Below are positions 16,395 to 51,820 of a DNA stretch of 64,000 bases, in pieces (the stretch's first letter is position 1; the number at the start of each line of letters is the position of its first letter). The stretch comes from Anadara kagoshimensis (lineage: Eukaryota; Mollusca; Bivalvia; Arcoida; Arcidae). The notes under the pieces are model-generated. The model saw only the letters and a list, made by a program, of their open reading frames with translations, was not told where the DNA came from and ran no database searches. Made by a program: the position numbers and the translations under genes. The stretch is taken from contig JACFYK010000033.1 of assembly GCA_021292105.1 (NCBI GenBank), positions 62,001-126,000 on the forward strand. The letters are read 5' to 3'.

Positions 16395-16866
16395 TTAGGT
16401 CAATGTCTGGAGATTTTGTAAAATCACCCCTACATAAAAAATTTAGTGGTCAGGCCGTTGAAGAAACAAATGATGTTGTTAAAACAATTTATCATAAAAA
16501 AATTAACCGTTCGGATACAACAACAGAAGCATTAAAAGTGAGAAAACGATTAGAATTTGTAATCAAGAAGATTTAAAACGAACTCAAAGGGGATATAGGA
16601 AAAGGATAATGATTATTGGGAAAGGAAAATTTACGACATAAGGGCTAGGAAAAAAAATCAAAAGTAGGAGAAGAAATGACTCATGCAAATGAAAGTTTTT
16701 ACCTTCTCCCATTAAAATAAAAAACATTACCGACTTACATCAAATGACAGATAAAGAAATAAAAGAATTACTTAAAACCAAATACGGGAAAACAACCAAA
16801 ATTAGAAAAAGAGAAAAATTAATAAAACTGGCAAAAACAATTATGGAAAGCAAATTTGAAATATAA
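16395..16866 (+). pseudogene. Decayed C-terminal fragment of the RAG1-like transposase family
   Basis: Reads LHKKFSGQAVEETNDVVKT, then SDTTTEALKVRKRLEF. It aligns with GKLRQFTGQGIEKTNDAVK and the following LRVRKRIE of the gene at 40,360-42,252, including the candidate catalytic glutamate. About 230 bp on, MTDKEIKELLKTKYGKTTKI with KREKLIKLAKTI matches that gene's SAP-like C-terminus. The middle is broken by stops and at least one frame change. Nothing N-terminal to the glutamate block is present. It is a relic within cyclin D intron 2. Confidence 0.7.
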
Positions 16867-31135: not shown

Positions 31136-34100
31136 TTGTTGTAGCAGAATACAGGATGTACTGAAGCAGAGTACAGATTTACTGTAACAGAGTACAGAGT
31201 GTACTATTGCATCGTACAGAGTGTTAATGTTTCGGAGTAAAGTGAGCTGTAACAGAATAAACTGTTGCATAGTACAGTGTACTGTTATACAATAAAGAGT
31301 GTACTGTCGCAGAGTGCAATGTACTGTAGCAGAGTACAGAGTTTATTTTAGCAGAGAAGAGTACAGAATATGATGTACCAGTGTACATTGTAATGTAGAA
31401 GAGTAGAATATACTGTATCAGAGTACATGGTGTGCTTAAGCAGAGTTTAAAGTATACTGTAGCAGAATATAGAGTTTATGCGGGAACAGAGTACAGTTTC
31501 CTGTTGCAGATCACAGTGTACTGTAACAGAGTACAGATTATAATGTAGCAGAGATAAGAAAACTTTAACAGAGTACAAAGTGTAATGTTGCAGAGAACAG
31601 AGTGTATTGCAGCAGTGTACAGAATTTACTTTAGCTGAGTAAAGTATACTGTAGCAGAGTACAGTGAAATGTAAGAGTATAGAGTGTAATGCAGCAGAGA
31701 ACAGAGTTTACTTAAGCAGAATAAAAAGTGTTATGTAGCAGGATACAGAGTGTACTGTAACATAGTACAGTTTATTGTGACAGTTTACAGTATAACTGAC
31801 TACAGTGTTCTGTAGCAGATAACACAATGTAGTGTTTCTGTGTACAGAGTATAATGTATCAAGGTACATAGTGTACTATAGCAGTGTACAGTGTACTGTT
31901 AAAGAGTACAAAGTGTTATTTAACAAAATACAGAATAATGTAATAGACTACAGTATGCTCTAACAGACTACAGTGTTCTGTAACAGATTACAGAGTGTAA
32001 TATATCAGATTTCATAGAGCACTCTAGTAGAGTACAATGTACTGTTGTATAATACAGTTTGTAATAAAGCAGAGTACATTGCACGGTTAGAAAGTACAGA
32101 TTGTACTTAGCAATGTACACTGTATTGTAATAGAGTACAGAGTGTAATGCTGCAGAGGTCAGTGTACTGTTGCAGAGGTCAGTGCACTGTTGCAGAGCGG
32201 TGTATTGTAGCAGGTTACGTAGTGACAGAGTGCAGAGTTACTGTTGTTGAGAACAGCGTTTACTTTAGCACAGCACAGTATACTCTAGGAGTACAGAGTG
32301 TAAAGTAAAAGAATACAGAGTTTGATATAGCACTGTACAATGTACTCTATCAAATTACAGATTGTACTTAACAGAGTACAGTGTAATGTAACAGAATACA
32401 AAGTGCAATGTAGCAGTTTACTGTAACAAAGTACAAATGTACTATAGCAGAGTATAGTGTACTTTGGCAGAATGCATAGTGTAATGAAGCAGAGTACCGA
32501 GTACAATAACAGATACAAAGTTATATGTAGCAGAGTACAGAATTTATTCTGGCAGATTACAGTGTTGTATAGCAGAGTAATTGTACTATAACAAAGTATA
32601 GTTTGAAGATAGTACAGAGTATACAGATCCAGATTACAGTGTACTGTTAAAGACTACATTGTACTGTAACAGAATATTTAGTGTAATGTTGAAGCGTACA
32701 AAGTGTACTGTTGCAGAGTATAGATTATTGTATAGAGTTTGTTGTTGGAGAGTACAGAGTTCCTTTAACAGAGTACAGAATGTACTGTTGAAGAGTATCG
32801 AGTGCTGTAACAGAATTCAGAGTGTAATGTAGCCGAGTACAGAGTGTAATACAGCAGAGTACAGAGTATTGTAACACAATACAGAGGGTAATATAGCAGA
32901 ATACAGCGTATGCTGTGGCAGAGTTGAATGAAGCAGAATATACTGTTACAGACTATAGTATGTACTTTTGCAGAGTACAGAGTTCCTGTACCAGAGTACA
33001 CAGTGTACTGTTGTAGAGAACAGTATAATATAGTGCAGAGTGTAATCTGTAGAATACAAAGTTTTCTGTAGAAGAGAACATGTGTACTACACAGAGTTGC
33101 CTTTTGCAGAGTACAGTGTAATGTTGCAGAGCAATGTATTGTAGCAGATTGCATAGTAAGATATACAGACTGTACTGCTGCAGAGTAAGTAGTGCTATAA
33201 AGAGTACAGAGTGCTATGTAGCGGACCACAGATACCAATGTTCCACAGTACAATGTTCTGTAAGAAATACAGTGCACTGTAACAGTTGATAGAGAGTACT
33301 GTTGCAGAGTACAGAGTGTACTATTGTATAGTACAGAGTATAATGTTGAAAAGTAAAGTGTACTGTAGAAGAGTACAGAGTTACTGTCGCAGAATACAGT
33401 GTAATGTTACAAGAGTACAGAGTATAATGTTGCAAAGAACAGAGTTTCTGTATCAGAGTACAGAGTGTACTGTTGCAGAGTACTGTTACAGAATACAGAG
33501 TGTACAGTGTTCAATACAGAACACAGAGCGTAATGTAACAGAATGCTCTGTACTGTTACAGAGTACAGAGTGTAAGTTAGTAGAGTACAGAATGTATGGT
33601 AGAGTACAGTGAATAATAACAGATTTCAGAGTGTAATGTAGAAGAGTACACAGTGTAATGTGGAAGAGTACAGAGTTTACTCTAGCAAAGAGTATACTGT
33701 AACAAGACATAAAGTGTAATGTTGTAGACTACAGAGTTATTTTAACAGAATACAGAGTGTACTGTTGCTGAGTACAGTGTACTGTATCAAAGTACAGATT
33801 GGTTAGGGTAAGGGTAATGTTGCAGGGTACAGTGTACTGTAACAGAGTACAAAGTGATATGTAGCAGAGTTTATTTCAGCAGTGTAAAGTGTACTGTTGC
33901 AGAGTAGAGTGTACTGTAGCAGAGTACAGTTGTAACTTACTACAGAGTATACCAGAGTATAGAGTATTGATAAAGACTAAAGTATGCTGTAACAGAATAT
34001 ACAATGTACGAATGCAGAGTACAGAGTGTACTTTTGCAGAGTAAAGTGCACTATAACAGAGTACAGAATGTAATGTAGCAGAGTATCGAATGCAGTAACA

Positions 34101-37100
34101 GAGTACAGACTGTACAGTAATCTGTAACAGAGTACAGAGTGTAAATATAGCAGAGTTCAGTGAACCGCAACATAGTAAAAAGTGATATGTAGCAATGTTG
34201 CAGAATACAGTGTATTCTAACAGATTACTGAGTGTAATGCAGCAGAATATGCTGTAGCAGAGTGCAGAATTTACATTAAATGAATGAAGCAGAGTACAGA
34301 GTATACACATACAGAGTATAGTATGTACTGTTGCAGAGTACAGAGTTTTTGTAATAGAGTGCAAATTACAGAATTTTAATACAGAATAAATATACTGTAA
34401 CAGAATATACAGTGTACTGGAACAGAGTGCAGAGTATAATGTAGCAGAGTACAGAGTGCTGTAACAAATTACAAACTATACAGTATTCTGTAACAGCACA
34501 GAGTGTAATGTAGGAGAGTACTTTCTAATATAGCAGAGTATATAGACTACTGTTGCAGAGTGCAGAGTACTGTAATAGAGTTCAAAAAAGATATGTAGCA
34601 GAGTGCCCAGTATACCGTTGCAAAGTACAGTGTACTGTTGCATAGTAGAGTTTACCTTAGCACAGTACAGTATATTGTAGCAGAGTACAGAATGCACTGT
34701 AGAGGAGTACAGAATATTGTGTAATGATGCAGAGTACAGTGTACTGTAACAGGGTACAGAATGTAATGTTGCAGAGTACAGTGTGTAATGCAGCAGATTA
34801 CATTGTACTGTAATAGCTTACAGAGTGCACTGTTGAAGAGTACAGAAGTTACTTTGGCAGAGAGGACTGTAGCAGAACAAAATGTAATGTGACAGAATAG
34901 TGTACAGTTGCAGTGTAGTGTACTCTCGCAGAGTGCAGAGTGTAATATCGCAGATTACAGACAACTGTAACAGAGTACAGTGTACTGTAAAAGTACAGAG
35001 TGTAATGTATCAGAGTATAGAGTGTACTGAAGCAGAGTACAGAGTGTACTGTTGCTGACTACTGAGTGTTGTCTCCAACAATACAGAATACTGAAACAAA
35101 GTACAGTATACTGTAACAGTGCAGAACGTAATGTTGCAGGAAAGTGTACTGTATCTGAGAACAAATTGTGCTGTTGCAGAGTACAGTGTACTGTAGCAGA
35201 TTACAGTGTGTAATGTCGCATAATAAAGACTACTGTAACAGAGTACAGAGTGTAAAGTTGCAGAGAACAGTTTATTGTAGAAAAGTTCAGTTTAGTGTAG
35301 CTGGTGGTAAGAGTTTACTTTAGAGGAGTAGATTGTACTGTTGCGGAGTAGATCGTGAAATTACAGAGGAGAGTGTAACATTTCAGAATAGAGTGTACTT
35401 AGTAGAGTAGAAGGTACTATTGCAGAGAATAGAGTGTACTGCAGCAAAGTAAAGAATGAACTGTAGCAAAGTATAGAGTGTACTGTAGCAGAATATAGAG
35501 TGTATTGTAGCAGAGTATAGAGTGTACTGTAGCAGAGTATAGTGTGTACTGTAGCAGAGTATAGAGTGTACTGTAGCAGACAATAGAGTGTACTGTAGCA
35601 GAGTATAGTGTGTAATGTAACAGAGAATAGAGTGTTCTGTAACAGAGAATAGAGTGTATTATAGCAGAGAATATAGTGTACTGTAGCAGAGTACAGAGTG
35701 TACTGTAGCAGAGTACAGAGTGTACTGTAGCAGAGTATAGAATGTACTGTAGCAGAGTATAGAGTTCAGTAGCAGAGAATAGAATGTACTGTAGCAGAGA
35801 ATAGAATGCACTGTAGCAGAGTATAGAGTCATGTGGCAGAGTATACAGAGTACTGTAGCAGAGTGTAGAATGTACTGTAGCAGGGTATAAAATGTACTGT
35901 AGCATAGAAAAGTATGTTCTGTAGCAGAGAATAGAATGCACTGTAGCAGAGAATAGAGTGTACTGTAGCAGAGTATAGTTTGTACTGTAACAGCGTATAG
36001 GGTGGACAGTAGCAGAGTATAGAATGTACTGTAGCAGAAAATAGAGTGTACTGTAGCAGAGTATAGACTGTCCTGTAGCAGAGAATAGATTGTCCTGTAG
36101 CAGATAATAGAGTGCACTGTAACAGAGTATAAAAGGTACTGTAGCAGTGTATAGATTGTACTGTAGCAGAGTATAGATTGTCCTGTAGCAGAGAATAGAG
36201 TGTACTGTAGCAGAGTATAGTGTGTACTGTAGCAGAGTATAGTGTGTACTGTAGCAGATTATAGAGTGTACTGTAGCAGAGAATAGATTGTCCTTTAGCA
36301 AAGAATAGAGTGTACTGTAGCAGACAATAGAGTGTACTGTAGCTGAGTATAGATTGTACTGTAGCAGTGTTTTGATTGTCTTGTAGCAGAGTATAGATTG
36401 TCCTGTAGCAGAAAATAGAGTGTACTGTAGCAGAGTATAGTGAGTAATGTAGCAGATGATAGAATGTACTGTAGCAGAGTATAGAGTGTACTGTAGCAGT
36501 GTTTTGGTTGTCTTGTAGCAGAGTATAGATTGTCCTGTAGCAGAAAATAGAGTGTACTGTAGCAGAGTATAGTGTGTAATGTAGCAGATGATAGAATGTA
36601 CTGTAGCAGAGTATAGATTCTCATGCAGCAGAGTATATAGTGCACTGTAGCAGAGTATAGAGTGTCCTGCAAGAGAGTAAAGAGTGTATTGTAGCAGAGT
36701 ATAGAGTGTACTATAGCAGTGTATAGAATGTGCTGCAGCAGGGTATAGAGTGTACCGTAGCAGGGTATAGAGTGTACTGTAGCAGAGAATAGGGTGTCCT
36801 GCAGCAAAGTATGGAATGTGCTGCAGTAGGGTATAGAGTGTACTGTAGCAGGGTACGGAGTGTAATGTAGCAGAGTTTAGAGTGTACTCTAGCAGAGAAA
36901 AGAGTGTACTGTAGCAGAGTATAGTGTGTACTGTAGTAGAATATAGGGTATATTGTTGCAGAATATAGAGTGTACCGTATCCGAGTATAGAGATTACTGC
37001 AGCAGAGTAGAGAGTATACTGTAACAGAGTACAGAGTGTACTTAGAAGAGTATAGAGTGCACTGTAGCAGGGTATAGAGTGCAGTGTAGTAGAGTATATA

Positions 37101-37565
37101 TCTTACTGTAGCAGAGTGTATTGTACTGTAGAAGAATACAGAGTGTACTGTCGCTGACCACTGAATGTCGTATCGCAGAATACAGACTACTGTAACAATA
37201 TACTGTAACAGTGCAGAGCGTAGTGTTGCAGGGAAGTGCACTGTAGCTGAGAACAGATTGTGCTGTTGCAGAGTTCAGTATTTTGTAGCCGATTACAGTG
37301 TGTAATGTCGCAGAATACAGACTACTGTAACAGAGTACAGAGTGTAATGGTACAGAGTACTGAGTACTGTAAAAGAGTACAGTATACTGTTACATTACAG
37401 AGAGTAATGTAGCAGAGTACAGTATACTATAACAGAGTACATAATGTACTGTAGCAGATTATAGAGTGTACTGTAGCAGAGTACAGTATATTGTAGAAAA
37501 GTCCAGTGTAGTGTAGCTGGAGGTTAGAGTTTAGGAGTAGATTGTACTGTTGCACAGTAGAATGT
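31136..37565. repeat. 6.4-kb satellite, about 22-bp unit
   Basis: Head-to-tail units built on AGAGTGTACTGTAGCAG plus a variable GTATAG/GTACAG part. The flanks (31.1-35.3 and 36.8-37.6 kb) are degenerate, with GTTGCAG and GTAACAG variants. The core at about 35,405-36,810 is near-uniform. Three units make 66 bp, so frames without stops persist; the longest is 294 codons on the minus strand, reading YTLLQYTLYSATVHSILC-type repeats, and overlaps another open frame. That is a by-product of the unit, not evidence for a protein. The right end is fused to a mariner element. Confidence 0.9.
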
Positions 37566-38470
37566 AACATAGGACCAAGGGCTTCTCGGGATTTGTAACG
37601 ACGACCAGATAAGGACTTTTTAAGTTTAAGAAATTGGAGGAAATCTGGAGAGTATGGTGGGTGTGGCAAGACGGTTACCTTCTCCGACTTTAAAAATTGC
37701 TTTACACGCTCAGATGTATGTGATGGAGTATTATCATGAAATAGACGAACATGCCTAAATCATGACACGGGCATCGTTTGAGATAATATTTTTAAGTATA
37801 ACATCTCGGTAATGCCGACTTGTACTACTTTTGTCCTTCAGCACCGGAATTTTACAGCCATACCATCAGATGAGAAGATACTAGTATGCAATAAAGAAAC
37901 TTCTTTGTGCCTATGCTTCTTTTGGCAACTACCGGTCCTCTACCGTGTTTAGTTAGCCATATTTTGTTTCCATTTTTTCTTACTGCTCCGAAATAGTGAA
38001 CCCATGTTTCGTCAGGAACAATGTTTGAAAATTGTCTTTGATTGAATTGGGAAACATTTTCAGCAATTGCTTAACGGTTTGTACTCGTACCAATGTTTGG
38101 TCATCTGTCAATATATGCGGGATCCATCTAGCAGACATCTTTCGAATTTTCAAAATATGCTTCAAAATGAAATGCACCCGCGATAGCGATATGCCAACAG
38201 CTTTAGTCATATCACGAATCGTGTATCTGTTATCACTTTTAATCATTTCCCTGACTTTTGAGACATTTGCCTTGCCTAAAACAGCCACAGGTCGGCCAGA
38301 TTGTGCTGCATCTTTTACGATTTTTTTTGTGCCAGTCAGAATTTTCTTTCTCCGCATACATTATAAGACCCATAAACCCAATTCAGTAAAAATCTGTATT
38401 ACCGAATGGCCGAGTTTTGTGCGAACTTTTATCATGAAAGCTCTAATTTCTTCAATATTCTCAACCCGTT
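37566..38470 (-). mobile_element. Broken mariner transposase (DD34D type)
   Basis: Plain Tc1/mariner DNA transposon. From the N-terminus on the minus strand: EIRAFMIKVRTKLGHS (about 38,450), then SGRPVAVLGKANVSKVREM and SDNRYTIRDMTKAVGISLS of the paired helix-turn-helix, and the mariner signature WIPHILTDDQ. The three catalytic aspartates are visible: DETWVHYF (about 38,010), FHDNTPSHTS (about 37,730) and PHPPYSPDF (about 37,650). Several frame changes and stops separate them, so it is dead. After SGRRYKSREALGP the sequence passes straight into the satellite. The last 20-30 residues and the 3' inverted terminal repeat are therefore missing. Confidence 0.85.
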
Positions 38471-39429: not shown

Positions 39430-39991
39430 AAAAATAAATAAATAAATTATGCAAATTTTCGAATCAAAGTTTATATAATTCTTATTATAAACTAAATGCC
39501 AGGTAGGACATCATTTTGTACCCCACACCAATTAAATTCTATGTAATTTTTTTCAAAGAAATGTTGAAAATGGCTTCAATCACTCCTGTTTAGGTTTTCT
39601 GTCAAAATATGAATATGAGTGGGGGGTACAAATGGAAGTCCTTCCCAAAAAATAAAAATAAAAAAATAAAATAAAATAAAATAAAATAAAATAAAATAAA
39701 ATAAAATAAAATAAAATAAAATAAAATAAATAAGTAAATATTCTGATGCAAATATCCGAATGAAAAGTTATGAATTCTTATTATATACAAAAAAAGTCAG
39801 GTATGACTTCCTTTTGTAACCATCACCCCCCCCAATTAAATTGAATTTAATTCTATGTAATTATTTGGAAAAATTATTTCTCAAAGTTGAAAATGGCTTC
39901 AATCCGTCCTGTTTAGGTTTTCTGTCAAAGTATGAATTTTAGTGGAGGTTACAAATGGAAGTCCTTCCAAATATAAATAAATAATAAAAAA

Positions 39992-40038
<47 letters not shown>

Positions 40039-40250
40039 ATATTCTGATGCAAATATCCGAATCAATGATTCTAAAATTCTTATTATATACAAAAATGTCA
40101 GACAATTGTAACCCCCTCCCCTCCCAATTAAATTCTATGTAAATTTTTTGAAAAGTTATTTTTCGTTTAAGAAATGTTGAAAATGGCTTCAATCTGTTTC
40201 TGTCAAAATATGAATTTTAGTCTCAGGAGGGTACAAATGGAAGTCCTTCA
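39430..40250. repeat. Three-unit tandem repeat, about 280-320 bp per unit
   Basis: GGTACAAATGGAAGTCCTTC-type blocks occur at about 39,626, 39,947 and 40,229, each preceded by GAAAATGGCTTCAATC and CTATGTAATTTTT. An A-rich microsatellite follows the first two, (AAAAT)n at 39,660-39,729 and (AAAT)n at 39,970-40,040. Differing tract lengths explain the uneven spacing. Confidence 0.75.
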
Positions 40251-40359: not shown

Positions 40360-42252
40360 TCACAATTTAGTATTCTGGGCAGCCTTTAACATTTCAATTA
40401 ATTGTTCCTTTTTTCTAACTTTAGTTGGTTTTCCCAGTTCTTTCAGTTTGTTTTTTATGTCCGACACTGAAAGTTCACTATAATCCGTGTTTTCTTTTTC
40501 GTTGATTGTAATACTCAAATTAATTTCCTCCCTTGTTACGTCGCTATCGTCCATTTCTCGTCGAATACGCGTTTTTTTAAGTAGTTTTTTGGTGAAAATA
40601 TCCCGGTCCCAATAATCATTATTCTTTTTTGTGTAACATCGTTTTGGTCTTTCGGCATTGTCTTCACTTCCCCTTTCTATTCGCTTACGGACTCTCAGAA
40701 CGTCTACACAAATGTCCGATTTATTTGTTTTTAGATGATGTAGTTGTTTCACGGCGTCGTTGGTTTTTTCTATTCCCTGTCCAGTGAATTGTCGTAATTT
40801 TCCATAGCGGGATACAAAATATGGCACATGGTAAACGAAAGCATGCATGTATGGCGTGACGTTTTTCTTTTGGTATCCCTTTCTTTGCTGGCCAAGTTGA
40901 ACAAAATCTAGTAACCATGCTTTGCATTTTTCAAAAATGGATTCAATGGCAGCATTCTCTTGGATGTCATTACAAATTAAATGGTATAAATCACCGAAGT
41001 CATTCCACAATTTCACAACAGATCCATGCGTTTCGTTTGCAATAACAAAAAGTAACTTATCGGGTAAGTGTTGAAGTAACAGTTTGTAATCCCGTCCCGT
41101 TAGAGATGACCATTCCAAATCGCTCTTACCCGACACAGGCTTCCAAACGTGAAAATCTACCCCAAAGTCTCGTATTCGGCCGACTAAATCTTTAACATGA
41201 CTTTGGTCCTCTTTGTCACCGCGGATGTCACTCTTAACGTTCAAGTCCCTGGCATCATCAATTAAATTGCGAAGTAGAACGTCACAAATACGCATTAATA
41301 AATGAAGTTCATCTGGGGCAATGTGATGCGGTTCTATATTCACGAGTGGGAGAAACTTTACGCCATATTCGCACTTTGAAGAATGTTTAACAATTTCCGG
41401 TATAGTACGCAACATCTTTTCACTGTGGTAATATAAGCAGTCTTTCGTTGTATCAAACCGGTCATCTTTAGGAATTTTGCACCACGGGCAAGCATAATTT
41501 GAAATAGCAGAACTAAGTCCTAACATAAGCTGTATAAATTTCATATCACCACCAAGGAACAATTCTATGTCATAATCTATACCATCAACACAAAGTTTCT
41601 TGTCGGTGTTAAGTTTATTCACTTCATTAATAAATGGAGAACATGCTAGTCTTATATTTTCATAACTTTCAGTACATTTAATGATTCCAACAGTTTTTTG
41701 TTCCAAATTTGATAGCTTACGGGTATCGCCTATGATGGAAAACGAAAAGACTACAAAATTTGAAATGCGACTGACTTTTGCACCGTCACCTGAAAACTTC
41801 ACCAAATACTTATTGGTTTTCTCAGCTGATTTTGATAGCTCCAGTTTAATGGCCCGTTGAAGTTCAGACAAGAAACTTATATAAGCACCTTCTATGTTAC
41901 CCGGAGTACGTTCAATGTGAAACATTGAAGTTAAATCGCTTTTACACTGGCCAATCAAAAACTTGCGGGGCAAGTCGTCATAGTACATAGTAAGTTCGTG
42001 ATATGCTTCATTACTGATACAAAATCTGTCTAAAATATACACCAACTGTTTTAACTTGTTTTTATCCTCAGTGCTTAGCAAATTATAATCACACACTGGA
42101 GTATGGTTGATATTTAAAGTTACGTCATTGCCAAGGGTTGAAAAAATTGATGGTGCGGCGTTAAACAGAATATCAACCACCAACCCAATCAGAATTCTTT
42201 CATTTCTATCAGTACGGTCAGTTTTTAGATGGTGGGAATCAGTAGCGTGCAC
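40360..42252 (-). CDS. RAG1-core-like DDE transposase family protein with SAP-like C-terminus
   Basis: 630 uninterrupted codons of a multi-copy invertebrate family I know only as uncharacterised. Candidate active-site acids: D156 (KFSGDGAKVS), D236 (FLGGDMKFIQ), E495 (GQGIEKTND). Candidate zinc ligands: C255 and C258 (CPWC), H470 and H475 (YMHAFVYHVP). D236-C255 is 19, H470-H475 is 5 and H475-E495 is 20, exactly as in mouse RAG1 (D708, C727, C730, H937, H942, E962). Residues about 592-625 look like a SAP DNA-binding motif (LSVSDIKNKLKELGKP). The first ATG follows an in-frame TAA by one codon. Relatives I recall are longer at the N-terminus, so an upstream exon or a truncation is possible. No inverted terminal repeats found, so an autonomous transposon is unproven. 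A decayed relative lies at 16,395. Confidence 0.7.
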   Translation of the reverse strand: MHATDSHHLKTDRTDRNERILIGLVVDILFNAAPSIFSTLGNDVTLNINHTPVCDYNLLSTEDKNKLKQLVYILDRFCISNEAYHELTMYYDDLPRKFLIGQCKSDLTSMFHIERTPGNIEGAYISFLSELQRAIKLELSKSAEKTNKYLVKFSGDGAKVSRISNFVVFSFSIIGDTRKLSNLEQKTVGIIKCTESYENIRLACSPFINEVNKLNTDKKLCVDGIDYDIELFLGGDMKFIQLMLGLSSAISNYACPWCKIPKDDRFDTTKDCLYYHSEKMLRTIPEIVKHSSKCEYGVKFLPLVNIEPHHIAPDELHLLMRICDVLLRNLIDDARDLNVKSDIRGDKEDQSHVKDLVGRIRDFGVDFHVWKPVSGKSDLEWSSLTGRDYKLLLQHLPDKLLFVIANETHGSVVKLWNDFGDLYHLICNDIQENAAIESIFEKCKAWLLDFVQLGQQRKGYQKKNVTPYMHAFVYHVPYFVSRYGKLRQFTGQGIEKTNDAVKQLHHLKTNKSDICVDVLRVRKRIERGSEDNAERPKRCYTKKNNDYWDRDIFTKKLLKKTRIRREMDDSDVTREEINLSITINEKENTDYSELSVSDIKNKLKELGKPTKVRKKEQLIEMLKAAQNTKL

Positions 42253-49229: not shown

Positions 49230-51820
49230 AAGTTTTACTTCTGTCATTGTGCTTGCCACAATTACAAATCTAGTTATTATTATTTTTCCTTCCACTTTCC
49301 GCACGCTTGTCTGCCCTTTTTCTCAAGATTCCTCACTCAATCTCGATGAAACTTTATATGAACAGTGTACTAACCATGTAAATGTGCTTTCTGCATTTGA
49401 AATTTCCAAGATGGCTGCCGTTACCATGGAAACATCTAAAAGAATAAAGATATTAAAACCCGTTTTTCTCGATAACCGTTTATCCGATTTTGATGAAATT
49501 TTCTAGGTTTATTCTAAAATCAAGCTTAAACGATTCCAAGGAAAAAAGACAACAAGAGCTATATTTATCACAGTTTAATGCCCCTCCAAAAACACATTTC
49601 CATAACCGTCTGATTTTCATGAAAATTTACAGAATTATTTCTAGCATGAAGAGTAATCGATTCCAGCATAAAAATTAACAAGAGCAGTATTTATCACAGT
49701 TTAATGCCCCTCCAAAAACACTTTTCGATGATTGCTTGTCCACCCTTTTTCTCAGAGATGCCTCATTCAATCTCAATGAAACTTTATAGCAACAATGTAT
49801 CTACTGTTACTAATAATAATCTTATTTGCATTAAACATATATTATAAGCTCCTTATAAAATGGGCATACCAATAGGAAGTGATACTCGTTTTCTAGAACC
49901 CTCATATTGCAACAATTACATAACCTATTTGTTTTGTTAACATTATTATACCTCCCTGTTTCAATAGATAAAGAATGAGAACCAGTACGAAAACGTGTAA
50001 GTGCTACTCTATATTTTTTTACCTTAATGATAGAAAGATAACGTTCGTAATTAAAACTACTCTTAAAGCCATAGTAAAAACACAATTTTGAACAATTTGA
50101 AAGTGAGCAATTCCATGTCTGTAAGTACTGGTCACATAATCTCTGTTTTAACAGTAAAATATCTGGAATATAGAAGTCTTGACTAATCCACAAATCTGTA
50201 AAACCCAAATGGAACAATACTTTTTTAACATTACTTGCCCAGTTTAAGCCTTTATAATTAACACCTTTTTCATCATCATTTCTTAACATTTGATAAATAT
50301 CATATAACATAGTATTTCTGCTACTTAAAATCTTAATCCAAAATTTTCAAATTTTAACTAAACGATTTATTTTTAAAGGCATTCGACCTAATTCACCATA
50401 CACTGCAGAAGAAACTGTTGACTTTTTCAAATTTAAAATAAACTTACAAAACTTTAGATGAACTTTTTCAATATTACAATACTCATTAAAACCCCAAACT
50501 TCTGACGCATATGACAAAACAGGTGTAACAAGAGTATCAAACATAAAACATTTCTTATCAATACTTATTTCACAATCTGATAAAATATTATATAAATTAT
50601 GTACTGCCACAGAGCCCTGTTCAACAATTTTGGACTCATTTAGTTTAAATTTACCATTATAAGAAAGTAAGACACCTAGATAGTTATAACTATTCACAAC
50701 ATCGACTTTTGAACCATCAATATAAAAATCATTGTTACACGATGGTGGTCTACCATTTTGAAAAATTACAATTTTTGTTTTATCTTTATTAATAGTAATA
50801 TCAAAATCCTTACAATAGCATTGTAAATTGTTTAATAGAGATTGCAGACCAACTTTGGATTTACTGAACAACACGGTGTCATCTGCAAACAGTAATGTAT
50901 AAAGAACAAAATCATTATATATAAAAGCATTATCTGCACTTGGTGCGATACACTCAACCATGTCATTTATAAACATTAAAAAAAGAGTTGGTGATAACGG
51001 TTCACCCTGTTTTACACCTGTGTGAGAACTGAAAAAATCGCTATATTCACCGTTATATTTAATACAAATCTGAACATCATTATACATAGCCTTTAATATT
51101 TTTACCATTTTGCAGCTGACACCTAGTGTATCTACTATGAAGATGTGCCTTCTGCATTTCAATTTCTACCGTTACCATGGAAACCACTAAAAGTATCAAA
51201 ACCTTAAAACTCACTTTTCTCGATAACCGTTTATCCGATTTTCATTGATTTTTGTAGGTTTATTTCTAAGATCAAACGTAATCGATTCCAAGGAAAAAAG
51301 ATAACAATAGTCGTATTTATAACAGTATAATGCCCCTCCAAAAACACATTTCCATAAACGTTTGTCCGATTTTCATGAAATTTTACAGGATTTTTTCTAG
51401 CACCAAGAGTAATCGATTCCAGCATACAAAATAAAAAGAGCTGTATTTACCACAGTTTAATGCTCCTCCAAAAACAGTTTTGGATGATCGCTTGTCTACC
51501 CGTTTTCTCAGAGATGCCTCAGTCCTTTATAGCAACAATGTATCAACCATTTACATTTGCAATCCGTATTTATCATTTCCAAGATTACTGCCGTTACCAT
51601 AGCTAAAAGTATTGAAACCTTAAACCTATTTTTCTCCATAACCGTTTATCCGATTATCATGAAATTTTATCGGATTATTTCTAGCATCAACAGTAATGGA
51701 TTTCAACGAAAACAAATAACAAGACCTATACTTATCACTGTTTAATGCCCCCTCCAAAGACACCTTTTCTCAAGAATGGAAAGTCATATCAACAGTACTT
51801 TTTCCAAATTCAAAGAAAAA
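49230..51820. repeat. Tandem family with CGATAACCGTTTATCCGATT and GCCCCTCCAAAAACA
   Basis: Units carry ATGGCTGCCGTTACCATGGA, CCGTTTATCCGATTTT and TTTAATGCCCCTCCAAAAAC and repeat before and after the nested LINE. The repeats around the LINE allow its empty site to be read. Non-coding. Confidence 0.75.
49806..51126 (-). mobile_element. 5'-truncated LINE with reverse transcriptase, clean insertion
   Basis: Bracketed by a perfect 10-bp duplication TGTATCTACT (49,796-49,805 and 51,127-51,136). On the minus strand 50,347-51,126 encodes RT motifs: GVKQGEPLSPTLFLMFINDM and the catalytic FADDTVLFSKS. The post-RT tail follows in another frame (about 49,831-50,310) with RTGSHSLSIETGRYNN, CNCC and LENEYHF. 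One frame change near 50,310-50,350 separates the two. The 5' truncation removes the endonuclease and the start of RT. The 3' end is a short ATT repeat rather than poly-A. Little decay otherwise, so it is the youngest LINE copy in the window. Clade not settled. Confidence 0.85.

Follow-up and report, generated by a model that had tools for sequence, protein, structure and literature searches.

RAG1 is derived from a transposase, and the deep branches around RAG1, Transib and Chapaev bear on how this came about. A 64,000-bp stretch of the genome of the bivalve Anadara kagoshimensis (assembly GCA_021292105.1, contig JACFYK010000033.1, positions 62,001 to 126,000; referred to here as the window) contains a 630-codon open frame in which presumed catalytic and zinc-binding residues are spaced largely as in mouse RAG1, and the question that this locus raises is to which of these branches it belongs. 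An earlier note, made from the letters alone, had given the frame a catalytic core of RAG1/Transib type. Homology of the core to RAG1 is supported by the sequence comparisons set out below, but its assignment to the RAG1/Transib type, rather than to another branch of the same clade, is not. Among the relatives that were scored directly (DUF1280 and RAG1), the family appears to stand beside DUF1280/Chapaev, with RAG1 more remote, and we put the probability of this reading at roughly 0.75.

The catalytic core and its likeness to RAG1

The open frame of this putative transposase of the RAG1/Chapaev branch lies at 40363..42252, with its stop codon at 40360-40362. Its 630 residues are as previously described; the strand, which had been left unstated, is the minus strand, and this applies to all the coordinates of the gene given here. 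The catalytic core used for profiles, which is kept in paralogues, comprises residues 60-530 (40663..42075). The seven residues already singled out were checked and all were found in place. D156 (41785..41787), in the context SGDGAK, is the likely first catalytic acid, and is equivalent by eye only to D600 of RAG1 (SCDGMG). The second acid D236 (41545..41547) and the third acid E495 (40768..40770) align with D708 and E962 respectively, while the zinc-site cysteines C255-x2-C258 (41479..41490) align with C727 and C730, and the zinc-site histidines H470-x4-H475 (40828..40845) with H937 and H942, the mouse numbering having been verified on PDB chain 6oem. Recomputation of the spacings D236-C255-C258 and H470-H475-E495 gave 19, 3, 5 and 20, identical to those in mouse RAG1, and 259 against 254 for D236 to E495, again as the earlier note had it. 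The distance from CxxC to HxxxxH is 212 as against 207 in mouse RAG1, and that from the first to the second acid 80 as against 108. Spacing alone is only suggestive, since the exact pattern D-x18-CxxC ... H-x4-H-x19-E arose in 4 of 20,000 shuffles of the window protein and a loose version of it in 197 of 3,000, and shuffling is in any case a weak null.

Conservation of the residues in relatives is better evidence than spacing. The genome (1.115 Gb in 36 contigs) yielded at least 69 matches to the window protein, a lower bound in which several matches are pieces of one locus. Many of the paralogous matches are interrupted by stops, and the nearest copy among the matches listed, leaving aside a twin contig discussed below, is about 50% identical to the window protein. 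An alignment of seven sequences was made from the window protein and six paralogous frames, one of which (L047; loci are numbered L, and contigs C) is a part frame; the window protein is 37-47% identical to five of them and 30% to the most distant. A larger set of 16 loci combined the aligned frames with stitched readings of decayed loci, row L026 being dropped as the same locus as L053. Most of these loci are decayed, and only those with a letter at a given site were counted, a stop being taken as no letter. On this basis D156 is kept in 10 of 11 loci, D236 in 12 of 12 and E495 in 15 of 15; C255 is kept in 13 of 14, C258 in 14 of 14, H470 in 13 of 13 and H475 in 12 of 15. A further conserved histidine, absent from the earlier note, is H317 (41302..41304) in the motif DELHL, which is kept in 13 of 15 loci and is invariant in the seven-sequence alignment. 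It can be matched by eye to H795 of RAG1 (IDALH), but this pairing is not proved, because hhalign set H795 against H310 and not against H317. The transposase family is likely to have relatives in other animals; pattern-based scans of viral and prokaryote collections confirmed none there.

When the window protein was used as a single query against the PDB, mouse RAG1 took the second and third places (E 0.6), an unrelated construct coming first at 0.2, and the best RAG1 stretch fell on window residues 461-515. The seven-sequence family profile gave a clearer result: places 1 to 10 of the 15 listed were RAG1 or amphioxus RAG1L, with E-values of 7.7e-4 to 0.028 and the next, non-RAG, match at 0.23, and the printed alignments paired D-CxxC and HxxxxH-E with RAG1 as expected. 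The Pfam RAG1 model (PF12940) found a single place in the whole 1.1-Gb genome (E 3.3e-5), and this lies within a paralogue, L044, whose fragment alone scored 32 bits against a curated cut-off of 25. Comparison with mouse RAG1 by hhalign gave a probability of 81% with the seven-sequence core and of 77% with the larger set, where the score was 46.2, with 40 shuffles of RAG1 giving no more than 23.1. The profile-profile check proposed in the earlier note thus bore out the likeness: the printed alignment pairs D236 with D708, C255-C258 with C727-C730, H470-H475 with H937-H942 and E495 with E962, at an identity to mouse RAG1 of 16% over 311 aligned columns.

A probable placement beside DUF1280/Chapaev

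A link between such transposases and RAG1 is already in print: the relevant part of a 2014 paper places DUF1280 in Chapaev and unites it with RAG1 in a single clade (PMC3985635). An excerpt of a further paper (PMC12730594) gives the signature C(2)C and H(3-4)H as common to EnSpm/CACTA, Mirage, Chapaev, Plavaka, ESTA, Lanisha, Transib and RAG1, and describes the CACTA-Mirage-Chapaev-Transib/RAG1 (CMCT) clade as having ends that are mostly CA..TG and duplications of 2-5 bp. The window frame carries this signature, with C255-x2-C258 and H470-x4-H475 between D236 and E495, and is in this respect like Transib and like CACTA/EnSpm (PF02992) and Mirage (PF06869) alike.

The DUF1280 model (PF06918) has three matches in the genome at two loci, L056 (38.8 bits) and L057 (65.2 bits), the cut-off being 25. 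In the region from the second acid to CxxC, the 16-locus profile scored the DUF1280 piece L056a at 38.3 bits as against 8.6 for mouse RAG1, while the short second-acid piece of L057 scored 12.2 bits. With hhalign, the same region of L056a gave a score of 57.8 (probability 94.5%) and an equally long piece of RAG1 one of 32.6 (27%), shuffles of L056a reaching at most 24.0 in 60 trials. By these scores the family is nearer to DUF1280 than to RAG1 in the D-CxxC region. The likeness is visible in the second-acid/CxxC core itself (FLFGDYSFLCNVIGHQGAASTFPCLWC in L056), where the distance from D to the first C is also 19, and by eye it extends to an LH motif like that of H317 (LPYLHILLGV in L057) and to a late HH..G..EQG region in L056. 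The idea that the RAG1 match was a sign of Transib membership was dropped after this comparison. At L056:1321-1716 (+), in this DUF1280/Chapaev locus, a frame with a cysteine pattern of PHD-like appearance was seen by eye inside or beside the core.

A number of results weigh against this placement, or against kinship with RAG1 in the first place. The window's own fragment scored 12.1 bits against PF12940, below the cut-off of 25; hmmscan of whole proteins did not report RAG1; a single-sequence phmmer search of the PDB with L042 alone, from the sister subfamily described below, gave no match; and HzTransib is absent from the family-profile PDB matches listed. Prediction of the core by AlphaFold2 without an alignment gave a mean predicted local distance difference test score (pLDDT) of 35 and no usable model. 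The first-acid region had zero profile score against both RAG1 D600 and its DUF1280 counterpart L057_D1, and the first-acid motif of DUF1280 is GGDKGG rather than SGDGAK, with no profile match between them. In the last-acid region RAG1 stood at 10.2 bits as against 6.0 for the DUF1280 piece L056b, L056 being decayed and missing the first His there. Neither L056 nor L057 is among the listed places of the window family, and PF06918 stays below its cut-off for that family: it matched one of six family fragments spanning the first acid to CxxC (E 0.0046, 17 bits as against 25), and none of six fragments lying further upstream, up to the first acid. Two loci, both decayed, stand behind the DUF1280 comparison, and a single paper supplies the name Chapaev. 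Zinc regions of Chapa or RING type are described for Chapaev in the relevant part of PMC4411706, and the Pfam models compared, with none for Chapa among them, reported no such region in the N-termini of L044 and L042, this part being absent from the window copy. A further point of difference from Chapaev is the tail, here SAP-like or a zinc knuckle. Finally, three of the four copies of the L042 element (on C4, C9 and C10) have no 5-bp flank match.

The first alternative to be weighed is that the family is a member of some other CMCT lineage (CACTA/EnSpm, Mirage, Plavaka, ESTA or Lanisha), or stands as a separate lineage at the same rank, the latter overlapping with the placement preferred here. 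The cysteine and histidine signature is, in the excerpt of PMC12730594, common to all of these, and the CA..TG ends and 2-5 bp duplications to most. Both the tails and the N-terminus are peculiar to the family, with no Pfam coverage above cut-off except for the RAG1 match on the L044 fragment. Yet CACTA/EnSpm (PF02992), with at least 88 places in the genome, and Mirage (DUF1258, PF06869), with at least 36, overlap at their listed places none of the 69 listed family places when coordinates are compared by eye, a comparison made from the side of these two models only. We consider this alternative unlikely, though it retains some weight.

A sister subfamily with bipartite ends, and the state of the window copy

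Four loci of the family, L042, L043, L041 and L050, are one element in four copies of 8.0-13.7 kb: 8,279 bp on C4, 8,254 bp on C8, 8,044 bp with a deletion on C10, and 13.7 kb on C9, the L042 copy lying at L042:1063-9341. Their aligned pieces are 99.3-99.9% identical. In all four copies both ends are present, and they are inverted and bipartite, in the form CATATCAACTTT-18 bp-AGTTATTTCCCTT; compared position by position, the two ends agree at 12/12 of positions 1-12 (CATATCAACTTT), 6/18 of positions 13-30, 13/13 of positions 31-43 (AGTTATTTCCCTT) and only 2/17 of positions 44-60. The elements start CATATC and finish GATATG. The C8 copy has TAAAA on both flanks; given the base order of locus L043, one or more of four copies would show a 5-bp match by chance with a probability of about 0.009. 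Matching 5-bp flanks are found in one of the four copies only, which is too little to fix 5 bp, or any other length, as that of the duplication. A constant 5 bp is the pattern of Transib/RAGL, and 4 or 3 bp that of Chapaev or Chapaev3. The earlier note had proposed a search for copies with common termini and 5-bp duplications; four copies with inverted ends do exist, in this sister subfamily, but a 5-bp flank match is seen in a single one. The near-identical L042-type copies may represent an element that was live until recently.

The L042 element encodes a frame of 715 residues with the core and, at the C-terminus, CSICRQNGHTKVTC, which fits Cx2Cx3GHx4C, a common zinc knuckle. A 173-residue frame upstream of it, present in all four copies and in two related loci, may be a further exon. 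These two and a frame of 137 residues antisense to the core are the frames of more than 100 residues in the 8,279-bp element. When frames of at least 45 residues in that element were read by eye, a procedure from which short exons escape, none was found to be RAG2-like. At L042:7192-7428 (-) there is an open frame with WYPAEVTELKNGLFRVHYKG, like a Tudor/Agenet piece (Agenet E 0.11), which may belong to the transposase gene as an upstream exon.

No comparable ends were recognised at the window copy. An inverted-repeat search gave mostly chance-type A+T-rich pairs among the 25 of 156 pairs listed, and a scan for inverted ends with flank repeats of 4-6 bp likewise (14 of 135 listed); the latter scan is a weak one, in that the true ends of L043 fell outside its 14 of 173 listed rows. 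The inner end motif of L042, at up to two mismatches, occurs at two places in the window that both lie far from the gene (3.3 expected). The outer motif occurs 27 times against 19.2 expected, a count reached in 5 of 100 shuffles, and near the gene there is none better than two mismatches.

The start of the gene is also in doubt. The opening codon of the 630-codon frame is GTG and the first Met is residue 89, whereas the 832-residue open frame of the paralogue L044 includes a Met at residue 20. Nothing corresponding to L044 ahead of its residue 272 was found in the 4.7 kb searched upstream of the window frame. Of nine further loci compared, six (L045, L046, L047, L049, L051 and L052) carry stretches of the L044 N-terminal part; L048 and L053 match L044 only from the start of the core onward, and L054 gave no match to L044 in the same comparison. 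An N-terminal region of some 250 residues, present in the paralogue, is therefore missing from the window copy, and the 5' end of the window gene is either missing or on unseen exons. The gene had been described as intact; its frame is open over 630 codons, but intactness of the gene itself is not shown. Contig C13 carries the same 10 kb as the window locus at 99.7% identity; the interpretation of this copy as a second insertion was rejected, since 10 kb in common at that identity is one locus in two contigs. As the window copy is without the N-terminal part and any recognised ends, it is, on its sequence, most likely an inactive relic in which the core frame has been retained.

It might be argued instead that the window copy is a domesticated host gene, which would be compatible with the placement of the family proposed above. 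The open core frame, where so many paralogous matches contain stops, would agree with this, as would the distance to the nearest listed copy and the presence of the frame in two contigs. A start codon before the core is absent, however, and the N-terminal counterpart was not found upstream, so that domestication seems to us quite improbable.

The C-terminal tail of the window frame contains a SAP-like helix-loop-helix at residues 590-619 (40396..40485). The Pfam SAP model (PF02037, cut-off 23.9) gave E 0.019 and 15.1 bits in the whole window protein and E 0.0032 and 17.5 bits in the tail alone; of four tails scanned the window's was the only positive, no match being obtained in those of L044, L045 and L047. 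With PHROGs, the tail had four matches, all of them weak (E 0.02-0.09). The predicted structure of residues 571-630 has a pLDDT of 76 and two helices, and when it was compared with the PDB, eight of the nine entries listed were Rho, MANF (SAP) or emerin (LEM) by title, all at E > 5. The SAP-like tail of the earlier note thus agrees with the weak Pfam match and the two-helix model, but the match is below cut-off and in one tail of four: 'SAP-like' is a fair name and not a proved assignment. In the open-licence literature, a search that leaves most subscription journals, Repbase and preprints outside, no SAP-tailed transposase of RAG1/Chapaev type was found. Ten places of equal score (47% identity over residues 552-627), on C3, C4, C7, C12, C13, C16, C19 and C26, repeat a piece of the tail region and are possibly a multi-copy derivative, from which the 3' end of this subfamily might be learnt.

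There remains the reading that the family is a Transib or RAG1L transposase proper, in the branch that gave RAG1. RAG1 and RAG1L (ProtoRAG) share with it D, D, E, CxxC, HxxxxH and a mid-core His in the same order; they head its PDB list, and Pfam RAG1 matches L044. In the last-acid region RAG1 scored above the decayed DUF1280 piece. L042 adds a C-terminus of the Cx2Cx3GHx4C type reported at the C-termini of RAG1L in an excerpt of PMC7204232, bipartite ends such as the two-element ends reported for RAGL transposons in an excerpt of PMC9435367, and the 5-bp flank repeat of one copy. Against this, identity to mouse RAG1 is 16%, as compared with the 26.22% that the part of PMC9435367 concerned gives as the mean for RAG1L cores together with Transib, a figure computed differently, and in the D-CxxC region DUF1280 stands far above RAG1. 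The ends are CATATC and not CAC, and the combination of CAC ends with a constant 5-bp duplication that characterises Transib and RAG1L was not found in the L042-type copies. HzTransib was missed by the family profile, yet mouse RAG1 alone matched it (E 0.003). Transib seems to be the closer of the two to RAG1. Pfam reported no RING or nonamer-binding region here, no RAG2-like second gene was seen (one of short exons would escape), and the window subfamily has its SAP-like tail. Membership of the Transib/RAG1L branch is accordingly very improbable in our estimation. That the spacing arose by chance in an unrelated protein is hardly credible: the loose pattern does turn up in shuffles, but the profile, Pfam and paralogue evidence speaks against it.

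With the family placed beside DUF1280/Chapaev, the way in which such an enzyme most likely acts can be proposed. The window frame most probably represents the catalytic core and C-terminal tail of an Asp-Asp-Glu (DDE) cut-and-paste transposase of the CMCT clade, from an animal lineage of low copy number; among the recognised relatives that were tested, DUF1280 is the nearest to it. D156, D236 and E495 would hold two metal ions, and CxxC and HxxxxH one zinc ion, so bracing an insertion in the RNase-H fold, while H317 may lie in the active site like H795 in RAG1. Cutting would take place at the two-part inverted repeats, of 12 bp outside and 13 bp inside with an 18-bp spacer, by nick and hairpin, the excised element then being rejoined elsewhere, and DNA binding would be aided by the SAP-like tail in the window subfamily or by the zinc knuckle in the L042 subfamily. 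All of this presumes transposase chemistry of RAG1 type, by homology.

A family alignable both to RAG1 and to DUF1280/Chapaev, with a RAG1L-type knuckle in one subfamily and bipartite ends, could serve as an outgroup for the order in which tail, ends and RAG2 were gained, and the L042-type copies are a possible substrate for assays of the hairpin mechanism; the window itself, holding a truncated copy, is the smaller gain. No description of the present family, its tails or its ends was found in the open-licence literature. A bolder proposal is that it forms an undescribed lineage of superfamily level between Chapaev and RAG1/Transib, with a RAG1-alignable core, two exchangeable DNA-binding tails (SAP-like, and the knuckle shared with RAG1L) and bipartite ends whose fixed 18-bp spacer would recall the heptamer-spacer-nonamer plan of recombination signals. 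This we hold to be doubtful; if it were true, such an intermediate lineage would show what ends and tail were like at a stage before V(D)J recombination.

Other features of the window

A second, decayed fragment of the same family lies on the plus strand at 16436..16555 and corresponds to frame residues 487-526, in the last-acid region, with a weaker match extending to 16819. Just past the 3' end of the transposase frame, at 39440-40250, about three diverged units of some 300 bp are arranged head to tail (as judged by eye), with runs of the AAATA type. A frame at 37983-38360 (-) gives a helix-turn-helix signal below cut-off (HTH_9, E 0.0019) and looks like what we take to be the N-terminal part of a mariner-type transposase. 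From 32285 to 37274 (-) there is a long stretch of short tandem repeats with spurious open frames of the CYSTLYTLLQYTLYSATVHSIL type. Remains of a reverse transcriptase at 50350-51165 (-) match RVT_1 (E 5.6e-17) and are probably a relic of the long interspersed nuclear element (LINE) type.

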